Source of the DNA: an uncultured Pelagibacteraceae bacterium
GTDB taxonomy: Bacteria > Pseudomonadota > Alphaproteobacteria > Pelagibacterales > Pelagibacteraceae
Assembly: GCA_902591025.1 (NCBI GenBank)
Contig: CACIZB010000005.1
Coordinates: 1-64,000, forward strand
Direction of reading: 5' to 3'
DNA length: 64,000 nt
The notes under the pieces: generated by a model
Seen by the model: the letters and a program-made list of their open reading frames with translations, nothing else
Told to the model about the DNA's origin: nothing
Database searches by the model: none
Made by a program: the position numbers and the translations under genes
Shown here: positions 41,751-47,661 of the stretch, piece after piece
How positions within the stretch are numbered: position 1 is the first letter of the stretch
How the letters are laid out: each line of letters opens with the position of its first letter

Positions 41751-42230
41751 TTAGTTTGCTTTTACAGAAACTGATCGTCTATTTTTTGACCAAGCTAGAG
41801 GATTTGAACCTGAGTCAACAGGTCTTTCTTTACCATAACTTAACACTGAAATTCTGTTTGATGAAATTCCATAAGTCATTAGGTAATCTTTTGCAGCATT
41901 AGCTCTTCTTTCACCTAATGCCAAATTATATTCTCTTGTTCCTCTTTCATCTGCATGACCTTCTAAGACAATATTTATCTTAGAATTTTTTCTTAACCAT
42001 GCGGCTTGTTTTCTTAAAGTTTCTCTTGAAGCAGTTGTTAAAACTGACTCATTAGTTGCAAAGAAAACTCTATCAGGTACTCCTGATGCTAAATATTCAA
42101 CTGTATCTTTTCCAGTATAAACATCACCTTGCATTTGCCCTGTTGTTTTCTTTGAAGTAGCACAAGCTGACAACATAATACATGCAACAGTAACTAAAAA
42201 TACATTTTTTAGAATTTTGTTTAATTTCAT
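41751..42230 (-). CDS. pal: Peptidoglycan-associated lipoprotein Pal
   Basis: Outer-membrane lipoprotein of 159 aa that binds peptidoglycan and TolB. The ATG at 42230 gives a proper lipoprotein signal: basic start, hydrophobic core and lipobox LSAC (residues 20-23). An AAGGAG ribosome site stands just upstream, which decides this start over an ATG 60 bases earlier. The OmpA-like domain has the signature LEGHADERGTREYNLALGERRA, here in two parts, with the diaminopimelate-binding Asp and Arg. The end SVSVKAN is typical. Confidence 0.96.
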   Translation of the reverse strand: MKLNKILKNVFLVTVACIMLSACATSKKTTGQMQGDVYTGKDTVEYLASGVPDRVFFATNESVLTTASRETLRKQAAWLRKNSKINIVLEGHADERGTREYNLALGERRANAAKDYLMTYGISSNRISVLSYGKERPVDSGSNPLAWSKNRRSVSVKAN

Positions 42231-42274
42231 TATTGCTCCTTGATCAAATTGCTTATTCTTGAGTTTTTCACAAC

Positions 42275-42303
42275 TAAATAGATGTTTCAAGTTAAAAAAT
42301 CAA
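42275..42303 (-). promoter_or_regulatory. Predicted promoter of pal
   Basis: Minus-strand -35 TTGATT (42298-42303) and -10 TATTTA (42275-42280) are separated by 17 bases, giving a leader of about 40 bases. It overlaps the gap after tolB, so pal could be transcribed alone and end at the terminator at 41702-41739. Confidence 0.5.
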
Positions 42304-42314
42304 GATAATATTAC

Positions 42315-43655
42315 TTAATTACTTAATAAAGATGACCATGATGGGTCTGAGGCATCAGTAGGGGTTTTTACTAACCTTTCGTTATAGCCTGTTAAATCTA
42401 TTGACCATAATTTAGCTGAAAATCCTTCACCTTTACTATCGGTTTTTGTCTCTCTATAGAAAATCAAAACTCTTCCATTAGGTGACCAAGACGGTGCTTC
42501 TTGATAAAAATTTTCTGTTAATAATCTTTCTCCACTTCCATCTGTTCTCATCACCCCAATATAAAATTTACCTTTATGTAATTTCGTGAAAGCAATTAAA
42601 TCACCTCTTGGAGACCAGACAGGAGTTCCATAAAGACCTTTTCCAAAGGAAATTCTTTTAACATTTTTTCCATCACTACGCATAACATATATTTGTTGAT
42701 ATCCACTTCTGTCAGAATTAAAAGCAATATATTTTCCATCGGGAGAAAAAGAGGGTGAAGTATCAATAGAAGGATGATTGGTGATTTTTTCTACAATCCT
42801 ATTTTCTAGATCCATTGTATAAATATCTGAATTACCATCTTTTGCAAAACTCATAATTATTTTTTTTCCATCAGGAGAAAACCTAGGAGCAAATGTCATT
42901 CCAGGAAAATCTCCAACTACTTCTTGCATACCAGTTTCTACATCTAAAAGATAAACCCTTGGTAAATTTTTAAAGTAAGATAAGTAGGTAACCATTTGAC
43001 TTGTAGGATTAAATCTGGGAGTTAGAACAAGTTCATTACCTAAAGTCAAAAATTTGTTATTCGCTCCATCCTGATCCATTATCGCTAACTTTTTAATTCT
43101 CCTAGTTTTCGGACCTTCCTCAGAAACATAAATTATTCTTGTATCAAAATACCCTTTCTCTCCAGTTAATCTCTCATAAACCTTGTCTGTTATTATGTGA
43201 CCAACTCTTCTCCAGTTATTTGGAACTGTTGTGAAAGCTAAAGCCATCATTTCTTTTCCAGCAAGGACATCCCACAATCTAAACTCTACTCTTAATTTTT
43301 CTTCAAAAATATTAACTTTACCAGTAATCAAAGCTTGTGCCTTAATCAAATTCCAATCCTCAAATCTAGGTTTTAAATTAGCAATATCTGGTTTTTGGAG
43401 GAAAGCATCTTTGTTAAGAGGATTAAAAAGTCCAGAAGCTTTTAAATTCTTTTCAACAACTAATGAAATTTCTGCACCTATATTTTTTTTTTTTAAAATT
43501 TTTTCAAAACTTTGTCTTGAGGTTTCATCAATAGATAATGGTGATACAGCTATAGGGAGTGGGTTCAAATTTCCTCTAGTAATATCAACCTCAATCAAAG
43601 CAAATACCTTAAGAGGTAGCATAAAAAAATAAAAAATTAATAATATTCTTAACAT
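42315..43655 (-). CDS. tolB: Tol-Pal system beta-propeller protein TolB
   Basis: Periplasmic 446-aa protein that connects the inner-membrane TolQRA complex to Pal. A signal peptide covers about residues 1-19 ([13 protein letters not shown]). The N-terminal domain is followed by a propeller made of repeats with SPDGK or SPNG and PSWSP/PSFSP cores, visible from about residue 215 to the end ([53 protein letters not shown]). Length is normal. 9 bases follow tolA. Confidence 0.96.
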
Positions 43656-43664
43656 TAAAATATA

Positions 43665-44474
43665 TTATCCTTCTAGCATCTCTCTTGCATCAAAATTAAG
43701 CTGTAATTCTTTCCACCTCTCATAACCAGTGCTAGGTACTCTTAAAGGCTGGCACAATTTTATAGCTCTTAATGCACTTTCTGCCAAAACTTTGTAAAAA
43801 CCCTGTCCAGGTTTATTCATTCTAGCATGATCTAATATTTCTGATTGTACTACAGTGCCATCCGGATTTAATTGTAACTTTATTCTTACTAACAAATTTT
43901 CATTGTACGGTAAGCCCAATGGTATACTCCAACATCCAAATATTTGAGCTTTAAGAGCATCTTCCTCACTCAAAGACAAACCAGATAGATCAACATTTTT
44001 TTGTTGATCTTGGGTAATTTTATCGGTTGTTTTTGTTGTTTCTGCTTTCTCCACCTTTGATTTATCTATTAATGCTGCAATATTATTTGGATCAAATAAC
44101 TCTTTCTTCTCAAATTCTGAAACTTGTTTTACTTCATTGTCTATTTTTTCAGGATTTTGTTTATCTTCTTTAATCTTTTCAACTTTTTTAGTTATATCCT
44201 CTGGCATCGGAACCGCATCTGGTTTTATTTTTTTAACTTTTTTTGGCGGTGCCTGTTCTGATACTAGTTTTTTCTCTTTTTCTTTTATCTTCTCTATTAT
44301 TTTTTTTGCCTTTGGTGCAAAAGGTATGTTTGTTTTATCTGTGATCTGTATAAGCTCTATTGAAACCATTGGTGGAAGATCTATTGGTTTTTTTGCTAAA
44401 AAAGGAAGGCTCATTGCTGTAAATAAAATAAAAAAAATATGAAGACTTGTGGAAATAAGCAGACTTCTATTCAC
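43665..44474 (-). CDS. tolA: Tol-Pal system protein TolA
   Basis: Inner-membrane anchored protein of 269 aa, reaching across the periplasm. One N-terminal helix lies at about residues 4-25. A long Lys/Glu/Pro-rich helical region follows (about 60-165), then a C-terminal TolA/TonB-like domain from about 175 that includes KAQIFGCWSIPLG and SALRAIKLCQPLRVP. The gene stands between tolR and tolB in the standard order. It is shorter than E. coli TolA (421 aa) mainly in the helical linker. Confidence 0.92.
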   Translation of the reverse strand: MNRSLLISTSLHIFFILFTAMSLPFLAKKPIDLPPMVSIELIQITDKTNIPFAPKAKKIIEKIKEKEKKLVSEQAPPKKVKKIKPDAVPMPEDITKKVEKIKEDKQNPEKIDNEVKQVSEFEKKELFDPNNIAALIDKSKVEKAETTKTTDKITQDQQKNVDLSGLSLSEEDALKAQIFGCWSIPLGLPYNENLLVRIKLQLNPDGTVVQSEILDHARMNKPGQGFYKVLAESALRAIKLCQPLRVPSTGYERWKELQLNFDAREMLEG

Positions 44475-44480
44475 TTATAT

Positions 44481-44897
44481 TTACCTTTCTTTATAAGGTT
44501 CTGATATTAGTGCAACTTTTGTAAAACCAGATCCTGATAGTAAGCCCATTATTTCAAGTACTCTACCGTAATTAATTGTTTTATCCCCTCTGACATAAAT
44601 TCTTGTGTCTGTTCTATTTTTGGAAACCGCCAAAACTTTTGCAATAATTTTCTCATATTCGACTTTTGACTCTTGTATAAAAATCTCACCTTTTGAGTTA
44701 ATCGTTAGTGTAAGAGGTTCTGCCTCCTCAGGGAGAGAATCAGCAGAACTCTCAGGTAAATCTACTTGTACTCCTACAGTCAATAAAGGTGCCGTTACCA
44801 TGAAAATAATTAAAAGGACTAACATTACATCAACAAATGGTGTAACATTTATTTCACTCATTGGTTCTTTTGATGAACGATTAAGTTTAAAAGCCAT
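44481..44897 (-). CDS. tolR: Tol-Pal system protein TolR
   Basis: ExbD-family inner-membrane protein of 138 aa, part of the proton-driven motor with TolQ. One transmembrane helix at about residues 19-39 carries the essential Asp in TPFVDVMLVLLIIFMV. The periplasmic domain follows, ending in LLSGSGFTKVALISEP. The short N terminus with SKEPMSEINVTPFVD is highly conserved. It starts one base after tolQ ends. Confidence 0.96.
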   Translation of the reverse strand: MAFKLNRSSKEPMSEINVTPFVDVMLVLLIIFMVTAPLLTVGVQVDLPESSADSLPEEAEPLTLTINSKGEIFIQESKVEYEKIIAKVLAVSKNRTDTRIYVRGDKTINYGRVLEIMGLLSGSGFTKVALISEPYKER

Positions 44898-44898
44898 T

Positions 44899-45573
44899 TT
44901 AAATTATTGTCAGAAATCTTTTTGAAAAGTTTTCTAATCTTTTTGAATATAAAATTGAATCATTATTAAATTTATTATAGGCAATAACAGCAGGTATTGC
45001 AGCTAATAGTCCTAAAGCTGTTGCAAATAAAGCCTCTGCTATACCTGGTGCTACAATCGCTAAACTTGTATTTCTTGAAATCGCTATTGATTGAAAAGAA
45101 TTCATTATTCCCCAAACAGTTCCGAATAAACCAATAAAAGGTGCTGTTGATCCAACAGTTGCTAGAAAAGTATAACCTTTGCTAATTTTTGACATTTGCT
45201 TTTCTATTCCTGTCTCTAACATAGTTGTCATTTTTTTGTGTAAGTCACTTTTTGATCTTCTTTTTAATAAATTTTGCATTGCTTCTTTAAAAACTAATGC
45301 CATTGGATCTTCTGTACCAGCTGGAAGATTGTTATAAAAAGACTCTGCTGATTTAGAATTCCAAAATTTTGTCTCAAATTCTTCTGTGGTTTGGTTTATT
45401 TTTTTGAATAATCTAAATTTTTCAATTATCACAGCCCAAGAGTAAACTGAACAAGCAATTAATATGACTATTACGGATTTAACAATAATATCTGCTCTAA
45501 TAAACAAACTTAAAAGAGAGAAATCAGTATTCGATGCCAAGCCTACTGCTTGAGATGATATATCAGCTTCCAT
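44899..45573 (-). CDS. tolQ: Tol-Pal system protein TolQ
   Basis: MotA/ExbB-family proton channel of 224 aa. Helix 1 is at about residues 27-48. The conserved second and third helices hold GYTFLATVGSTAPFIGLFGTVWGIM and SLAIVAPGIAEALFATALGLLAAIPAV, each in adjacent parts, with the Thr and Glu residues used for proton passage. A 51-base gap separates it from the upstream ruvC-like gene. It heads the tolQRAB row, with pal and cpoB after it. Confidence 0.96.
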   Translation of the reverse strand: MEADISSQAVGLASNTDFSLLSLFIRADIIVKSVIVILIACSVYSWAVIIEKFRLFKKINQTTEEFETKFWNSKSAESFYNNLPAGTEDPMALVFKEAMQNLLKRRSKSDLHKKMTTMLETGIEKQMSKISKGYTFLATVGSTAPFIGLFGTVWGIMNSFQSIAISRNTSLAIVAPGIAEALFATALGLLAAIPAVIAYNKFNNDSILYSKRLENFSKRFLTII

Positions 45574-45624: not shown

Positions 45625-46119
45625 TTAGCTGTCTATTTTATAAGTTTCATTATAAAAACTGGCGATTAAAATAGCATCTGCTTTATTAGCATCCTTTTTT
45701 TTTGATAATTCTTGAGAAAAATATGGGAATATTTCAATTGCTTTTGTCCTACTTGCATCCTTCTCAGAATTAATCAAATTAAAGTATTTTTTCCATTTTG
45801 CTGGTCTCACAAAATACATAGGTAATTTCATTGCTGAACAAATTCCTTTCAGAATTCCAAAAGATTGACCAAAATTAAACATACTGGTTACTCCTTGTCC
45901 CGGCATCGCTGAAACTTGCTCAATAACTACTCTCACTTCTTGATTTTGAATTTTATTAATTACTCTATTAATTTCATTATATATTTGAGAGCCATTTATT
46001 TGTTTCTTATTTTTTTTTCCTTCAGCCATAGTTGGCATCTCAAGAACCTCTAGAATTTTACCATCCAAAAAAAAACAAATTGAGCCGGAAATACCAGGGT
46101 CTATTCCAATTATCAACAT
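45625..46119 (-). CDS. RuvC-like Holliday-junction nuclease (phage/A22-like branch), at the ruv locus
   Basis: RNase H-fold endonuclease of 164 aa, expected to cut Holliday junctions or similar branched DNA. The first strand is LIIGIDPGISG with D7. Further acidic residues are E67 in VVIEQVSAMPG and D143/D148 in KKDANKADAILIA, matching the four-acid RuvC centre. The stretch TSMFNFGQSFGILKG is seen in phage and plasmid RuvC-like resolvases rather than canonical RuvC. Position is the classic yebC-ruvC-(ruvAB)-tolQ slot, but ruvA and ruvB are absent between it and tolQ. It may therefore work without the RuvAB motor, or RuvAB lies elsewhere. Enzyme activity is inferred. Confidence 0.82.
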   Translation of the reverse strand: MLIIGIDPGISGSICFFLDGKILEVLEMPTMAEGKKNKKQINGSQIYNEINRVINKIQNQEVRVVIEQVSAMPGQGVTSMFNFGQSFGILKGICSAMKLPMYFVRPAKWKKYFNLINSEKDASRTKAIEIFPYFSQELSKKKDANKADAILIASFYNETYKIDS

Positions 46120-46122
46120 AGT

Positions 46123-46845
46123 TTATTCAACCAATTGTGCATTTGTGTAAATATTTTGCACATCATCATCATCTTCTAACGTATTAAACAAATTCACCAA
46201 ATCCTCATTTCTTTCTTTAGAAACTTTAACATAATTGAGTGGTATCCATTCAATTTCAGTTGAAATAAAGTTTTTTATTTCTTTCTCAAGATCTTTTTTA
46301 ACATCATAAATTATATCAATTGGACAATGTATTTCATGAAAATTAACATTCGTTTTACACTCATCTGCACCTGCTTCAATGGCTAATTCAAAAATACGCT
46401 CATCAGTTATCTCTTTTTTATCAATTTTAATAACTCCTAGTTGTTTAAAATTATGAGAGGCAGAACCCTGGGTTCCAAGACTGCCGCCAGCTTTTTGAAA
46501 AATAGTTCTTACATTAGAGGCCGTTCTATTTTTGTTGTCTGTTAGAGCTTCTACAATAACAGCTATCTTATTAGGTCCAAAACCCTCATATCTTAGACTT
46601 TCAAAATTTACTTCATCATTACTTGATGATTTATTGATTGCTCTCTCGATATTATCTTTTGGCATGTTTGCTGATCGTGCAGCTTGAATAGCTGACCTCA
46701 ATCTTGGATTCATATCTGGATTTTTATCTCCAAGCTTTGCAGCAACAGTAATTTCTTTTGATAATTTTGAAAAAATCTTAGATCTTTGTTTATCTGCTTT
46801 TCCTTTCTTGTGTTTGATTCCTGCCCAATGAGAATGTCCTGCCAT
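46123..46845 (-). CDS. yebC: YebC/TACO1-family protein
   Basis: Widely conserved 240-aa cytosolic protein, long described as a transcription regulator and lately linked to translation of proline-rich stretches. It opens with MAGHSHWAGIKHKKGKADKQ, the family hallmark, then has PKDNIERAI, the YEGFGPNKIAVIVEALTDN region in two pieces, and ends IYTNAQL. It lies just upstream of the ruvC-like gene with 3 bases between, the common proteobacterial pairing. Confidence 0.96.
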   Translation of the reverse strand: MAGHSHWAGIKHKKGKADKQRSKIFSKLSKEITVAAKLGDKNPDMNPRLRSAIQAARSANMPKDNIERAINKSSSNDEVNFESLRYEGFGPNKIAVIVEALTDNKNRTASNVRTIFQKAGGSLGTQGSASHNFKQLGVIKIDKKEITDERIFELAIEAGADECKTNVNFHEIHCPIDIIYDVKKDLEKEIKNFISTEIEWIPLNYVKVSKERNEDLVNLFNTLEDDDDVQNIYTNAQLVE

Positions 46846-46854
46846 AAATTAAAT

Positions 46855-47661
46855 TTATTTATTGTTTGTTAATTGACCTCCAAAAATATAACTATTAACC
46901 TTGTAAGCTAAACCAGTCTCTAAATTACACTCTACAATAACGCCGCTCAAACTTGCTTCACCATTTGATGGAAAATGTTTTACAGAGTCTTTTTTCATAA
47001 ATCTATTTAATGAGTTTTCTTTATCCATCCCAATAACAGAATCATAATCACCACACATGCCCGCATCTGTCTGATAAGCAGTTCCATTTTTTAAAATTCT
47101 TGCATCATTAGTTGGAACATGGGTATGGGTCCCAACCACAAGTGTTGCTTTACCATCAAAAAAATGTCCTATTGCATTTTTTTCGCTTGTAATTTCCCCA
47201 TGGAAATCTATGACTAAAATATCGTAATCTTCTTTAAGTTGATACTCATTGATAAATTTTTTTGAAGTTTCAAAAACATCATCACATTTTTTCATAAAAA
47301 CATTTCCCATTAAATTTAAAACTCCAATTTTTACTTTTTCAGCAGTGATATAAATTTCAAAACCTTTACCAGGTGCCGGTTCAAATAAATTCTTCGGACG
47401 AAGTAATCTTTTTTCTTTATCGATGAAATTCATTATCTCTTTTTGATCCCAAACATGATTACCTGTTGTAATGACATCGACTCCAGAGTTAAAGAATTCT
47501 TCACAAATTTCTTTAGTGAGACCTACTCCCTCTTTGGCTGCATTTTCTGCATTTACTATTACAAAATCAATTTTATTTTTTTTCTTTTGCTCAGGGAGAT
47601 TATTAATTATTTTTAAGTAACCCGAATTTCCAACAACGTCTCCTAAAAATAATACTTTCAT
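46855..47661 (-). CDS. YmdB-family metallophosphoesterase
   Basis: Calcineurin-like phosphoesterase of 268 aa, of the group with B. subtilis YmdB, a cyclic-nucleotide phosphodiesterase. The metal sites are visible as FLGDVVG (residues 4-10), NAENAA, TTGNHVWD, DFHGE and the GTHTHVPTNDARIL motif near residue 180, where the last histidines sit. Other alphaproteobacteria carry the gene next to fau or yebC as here. Substrate not certain; cyclic AMP or RNA ends are both reported for the family. Confidence 0.88.
   Translation of the reverse strand: MKVLFLGDVVGNSGYLKIINNLPEQKKKNKIDFVIVNAENAAKEGVGLTKEICEEFFNSGVDVITTGNHVWDQKEIMNFIDKEKRLLRPKNLFEPAPGKGFEIYITAEKVKIGVLNLMGNVFMKKCDDVFETSKKFINEYQLKEDYDILVIDFHGEITSEKNAIGHFFDGKATLVVGTHTHVPTNDARILKNGTAYQTDAGMCGDYDSVIGMDKENSLNRFMKKDSVKHFPSNGEASLSGVIVECNLETGLAYKVNSYIFGGQLTNNK

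Follow-up and report, generated by a model that had tools for sequence, protein, structure and literature searches.

We consider it very probable that an ancestor of the Pelagibacteraceae acquired from a phage a MOC1-like enzyme for resolving Holliday junctions, which became fixed at the ruv locus, and that ruvC, ruvA and ruvB were lost there. RuvABC is the textbook, near-universal three-gene machine with which bacteria finish DNA recombination, and SAR11 are among the commonest bacteria of the sea. The preliminary description of the DNA studied here had proposed that a phage-like resolvase may have replaced RuvABC in place, and the phylogenetic tree, the lack of RuvABC in every genome of the order that we sampled and the constancy of the chromosomal slot all support this. 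Neither of the outcomes named beforehand as contradicting it was observed: the protein does not group with alphaproteobacterial RuvC, and ruvAB do not turn up at another place.

In the window, as we call the whole stretch of 64,000 nucleotides that was analyzed, the gene of interest occupies positions 45625-46119 on the minus strand, starts with ATG, and encodes a 164-aa RuvC-superfamily nuclease that we predict to be a Holliday-junction resolvase of the MOC1/phrog_1770 type. It lies between genes for a yebC-family regulator (46123-46845, minus strand, upstream, 3 bp away) and tolQ (44899-45573, minus strand, downstream, 51 bp away), the position it had originally been given. Beyond tolQ are tolR (44481-44897), tolA (43665-44474), tolB (42315-43655) and pal (41751-42290), and on the other side of yebC there is a YmdB-type phosphoesterase gene (46855-47661, minus strand); we named these five genes by eye from the sequence. 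Relatives that lack RuvABC, and one that has it, keep the YmdB-type gene upstream of yebC, so the ruv slot is otherwise undisturbed, and no phage genes adjoin the resolvase gene. The order described as usual for Alphaproteobacteria was indeed seen in three genomes (G325, G155 and G266) as yebC-ruvC-ruvA-ruvB-(ybgC)-tolQ. In the genus of the window ybgC has been lost from the slot, and we noted that some members of the family retain it between the resolvase gene and tolQ, as the LD12-like genome G009 does (L046 2739-3152).

The protein belongs to the wider phage/MOC1 group and not to plant MOC1 proper. The PHROG profile phrog_1770 (phage Holliday-junction resolvase) matches residues 1-160 with an E-value of 6.4e-36, no Pfam family scores above its cut-off, and the NCBIfam RuvC model NF000711, whose cut-off is 163, gives 21.9 bits. 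Among PDB sequences, the closest solved structures are all of chloroplast MOC1 (E 1e-12, about 26% identity). Phage records gave 86 matches, with 27-48% identity among the matches listed; several are annotated as resolvases, and one, from a Stenotrophomonas phage, carries the conserved domain cd22992 MOC1. Viral contigs hold at least 588 relatives, the best of them 47-48% identical, and we found no close donor phage, the best relative being about 48% identical. The AF2 model of the protein (pLDDT 92.9) aligns in Foldseek with MOC1 at TM scores of 0.78-0.85 (0.84-0.85 for MOC1-junction complexes) and with RuvC at 0.57-0.67. The preliminary description had spoken of a phage/A22 type, and its phage affinity holds, but the MOC1 type of phages and chloroplasts, represented by phrog_1770, appears to be closer than poxvirus A22, which is absent among the matches listed in our PDB sequence and structure comparisons.

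In a tree of 61 proteins (LG+C20; 7 SAR11 representatives and 6 alphaproteobacterial RuvC), the SAR11 resolvases make up a single clade (100/97) that lies within the phage proteins, and a long branch (100/100) sets the alphaproteobacterial RuvC apart. An ordinary RuvC is ruled out by the profile scores, the tree and the fold together, as had been suspected from the sequence of the protein. One could still argue that the protein is the lineage's own RuvC, altered beyond recognition after RuvAB was lost, and not a captured phage gene, since it has the fold superfamily and the chromosomal position in common with ruvC. Yet it is about 40-48% identical to phage proteins, sits among them with RuvC outside, and has in common with its phage relatives the hallmark motif MPGQG.TSMF.FG; moreover, the PD-(D/E)XK enzymes in the slots of sister lineages, described below, cannot be modified RuvC. 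We regard an altered RuvC as very unlikely.

The 164-aa protein has all of the residues first pointed out in it, namely D7, E67, D143, D148 and MFNFGQSFGILKG. In NtMOC1, D116, D118, E175 and E258 are essential, mutation of D253 is without effect, and D183 reads cytosine (PMC7078210). Aligned to NtMOC1, D116 corresponds to D7, D118 to G9, E175 to E67, D183 to Q75, D253 to D143, and E258 to D148. Among 18 diverse relatives, D7 and E67 are unchanged and position 148 is always D in SAR11 but can be either D or E in the others, while D143 varies in the phage relatives. All five of D7, E67, Q75, D143 and D148 are invariant in the 70/70 SAR11 proteins of equal length. Judging by these alignments, the metal is likely to be bound by D7, E67 and D148, and of the four residues that had been placed in a RuvC centre only these three look catalytic. 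D143 probably lies outside the catalytic centre, because this position is variable in phage relatives and its NtMOC1 counterpart, D253, is dispensable. The D118 of the plant MOC1 tetrad and the cytosine-reading D183 are lacking, with G9 and Q75 (the latter at the position of the base-recognition loop) in their places, and thus activity and sequence preference may differ from those of plant MOC1. The phage members also have G at the G9 position, and most have Q at position 75.

Profile searches found RuvA, RuvB and RuvC (canonical RuvC with TIGR00228) above family cut-offs in 0/147 sampled genomes of the order, and none of the three in the window's own genome, which is 86% complete. This extends to whole genomes the earlier remark that ruvAB is missing before tolQ: in a full search of a closed SAR11 chromosome of 1,308,759 bp, presumably that of HTCC1062, there is no relative of RuvA or RuvC, the RuvB search gives weak AAA+ background only, and the MOC1-type resolvase gene is there in one copy, whereas the other resolvases of the slot, described below, are absent. 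For comparison, RuvB is above cut-off in 342/385 alphaproteobacterial genomes. We considered a hidden RuvB and a hidden RuvA and rejected both: the candidate RuvB matches, with scores of about 20-35 bits, stay well below the cut-off of 299 and were read as other AAA+ ATPases, and the candidate RuvA matches cover a stretch of ~30 residues in ~200-aa proteins and were read as RecR-type helix-hairpin-helix. RecG was detected in 128/147 genomes of the order, scoring just under the curated cut-off. The window's own assembly showed no RecG despite its near-universal presence in the order, probably due to the missing 14% of the sequence.

Two further observations concern RuvC-like genes in these and other genomes. 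A SAR11 YqgF/RuvX-like ORF (IGLDLGSKRIGVS) with a RuvC-like motif is located at G011:C1:1045503-1046045 (L407), and a YqgF-like ORF was seen in the closed 1,308,759-bp chromosome; SAR11 genes annotated as "putative Holliday junction resolvase" may go back to such an ORF. In three genomes canonical RuvC follows yebC and no RuvB was detected in the genome (G253, L339 7731-8279; G264, L084 2246-2758; G190, L087 2253-2771). G253 and G264 are 99-100% complete and have no ruvAB after ruvC either, which suggests that RuvC is present there without RuvAB.

The MOC1-type resolvase gene is present in 87/94 genomes of the window's family and 0/53 genomes in the order's other family, and the named records that carry it are Pelagibacteraceae or Candidatus Pelagibacter. 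In each of the 77 usable named loci, yebC precedes it and tolQ follows it. Two of the family genomes without the gene (G040 and G113) are also missing yebC, so we attribute its absence there to assembly gaps. The median dN/dS of the gene is 0.056 among close pairs; it is under strong purifying selection, and the observation is therefore more than chance. We noted one broken copy in a SAR11-family genome (G137:C10:14998-15479), with several in-frame stops and three fragments, which is either a true pseudogene or an assembly error. Many of the genomes were assembled from single cells or metagenomes, and the window's own is incomplete, so an artefact of assembly or binning, or a prophage remnant, might be thought to mimic replacement. 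Closed single-contig genomes refute this, for they have the gene in the same position, and purifying selection, the same core genes on both sides in 77/77 loci and the lack of adjoining phage genes also speak against it; we give the idea practically no credence.

We observed several other occupants of the ruv slot. In the sister family, all 5 loci examined have the arrangement yebC-X-tolQ, where X is a PD-(D/E)XK protein of 123-127 aa (PF24608, E about 1e-7; phrog_244, E 2e-20) that is 50-60% identical to proteins of viral contigs; this resolvase occurs in 43/53 genomes there and 0/94 in the window's family. In G176 (1,410,127 bp), which we take to be HIMB59, the slot holds a 122-aa phrog_2002-type protein with a D...ExK-like motif. 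Relatives of that protein are found in 106/120 genomes of the HIMB59-type order, and in 20/20 when only genomes with a completeness of 90% or more are counted, and the protein in the slot of G169 is 60% identical to it. In G195, the gene after yebC encodes a PDDEXK_15 protein of 168 aa (E 2e-21) that is 44% identical to proteins of Pseudomonas jumbo phages, and the next gene is tilS, not tolQ. In G263 the arrangement is yebC-X-ybgC-tolQ and X is a different MOC1-type protein; the AU test (p 2e-6) rules out a single clade with SAR11, and with it a capture shared by SAR11 and G263. MOC1-type matches in G339, G390 and G455 have no yebC or tolQ alongside and are partly phage- or plasmid-like, and these genomes have kept RuvB. 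The genomes of the sister family and G176, G169, G195 and G263 are all without RuvB, and the slot enzymes of these other RuvB-less lineages all belong to phage families annotated as Holliday-junction resolvases.

Because other phage-type resolvases fill the same slot in RuvB-less lineages, the replacement that we propose for SAR11 is corroborated. We count about five refills, made up of two MOC1-type captures, two PDDEXK_15 types and one phrog_2002 type; this count covers the slots described above, with G248, G279, G192, G218 and ~20 further alphaproteobacterial genomes without RuvB standing outside it, and both PDDEXK_15 types are taken as putative separate captures from their low mutual similarity and their different nearest phages. 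We think it likely that the alphaproteobacterial ruvCAB locus is a recurrent replacement site, at which about five phage-type single-protein resolvases took the slot in lineages without RuvABC, SAR11, its sister family and HIMB59 included, and that RuvAB-independent, RecG-assisted recombination would then be normal in much of the surface-ocean bacteria.

The nuclease might instead serve another role, in phage defence or in segregation as MOC1 does, with SAR11 junctions resolved by another enzyme or by none. SAR11 also has the YqgF/RuvX-like protein with its RuvC-like motif, but YqgF is found beside RuvC in ordinary bacteria too. MOC1 is known to act in chloroplast nucleoid segregation (PMC7078210), which favours such a role for its SAR11 relative, but the resolvase stands alone in the ruv locus, where other RuvB-less lineages place annotated phage resolvases, and unlike defence genes it is essentially universal in the family. 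We consider a different role improbable and return to junction resolution in place of RuvABC.

In the replacement that we favour, a phage resolvase would have been gained at or beside ruvC, and ruvCAB, no longer needed, would then have been lost. The resolvase, most likely a dimer, would open the four-way junction and cut symmetrically on opposite strands by metal-ion chemistry at D7, E67 and D148. Because a phage-type resolvase of this sort loads without RuvAB, RecG, which the order has kept, would take over branch migration, perhaps together with other helicases. Rescue by RusA in E. coli needs RecG. In E. coli ruvAB and ruvC mutants, this phage resolvase frees DNA tied up in junctions (PMC2716532). 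As to why one slot would be used repeatedly, our guesses are expression from the operon or insertion beside the gene that is replaced.

Loss of ruvABC in Pelagibacter has reportedly been published by Viklund et al. in 2012, and we found no report in the open-access literature that we searched of its in-place replacement in SAR11. Among the core proteins of SAR11, a 2013 table includes a "putative Holliday junction resolvase" (PMC3686209), which may be the MOC1-type resolvase or YqgF. SAR11 populations are known for frequent recombination, according to work cited in PMC7318151. The SAR11 resolvase is a candidate for the missing junction enzyme, with donation by phage indicated, and different phage enzymes have been placed in the same ruv slot of other lineages. 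It becomes directly testable whether, on an evolutionary time scale, a lone phage resolvase with RecG can stand in for RuvABC, and what effect this has on crossover frequency and on sequence preference in AT-rich genomes.

Among known systems, chloroplast MOC1 (ZmMOC1, NtMOC1) resembles the SAR11 resolvase in fold (TM 0.84-0.85), in length and in being a single-gene resolvase, and its catalytic D116, E175 and E258 answer to D7, E67 and D148; the SAR11 enzyme differs in having G9 and Q75 and in being encoded by a bacterial chromosomal gene at the ruv locus. The PHROG 1770 phage resolvases, such as those of Salmonella phage epsilon15 and Planktothrix phage PaV-LD, have the motif and the catalytic residues in common with it, and the nearer ones are about 38-48% identical; the SAR11 gene differs from these phage genes in belonging to the fixed chromosomal core of a bacterial family, where it stands instead of ruvCAB. 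Canonical RuvC has the same superfamily fold, acidic catalytic residues and chromosomal address, and ordinary RuvC also has G at the position of G9, but the SAR11 resolvase is without RuvA and RuvB partners and falls outside the RuvC clade. RusA, from a cryptic E. coli prophage, is a functional precedent for a phage resolvase acting in place of RuvABC, although its fold is unrelated and it is not fixed in the ruv locus. The PD-(D/E)XK phage resolvases (PF24608/phrog_244 and phrog_2002) are unrelated to the SAR11 resolvase in fold and active site, and yet in the sister-family and HIMB59-type genomes examined they occupy the same yebC-X-tolQ slot.
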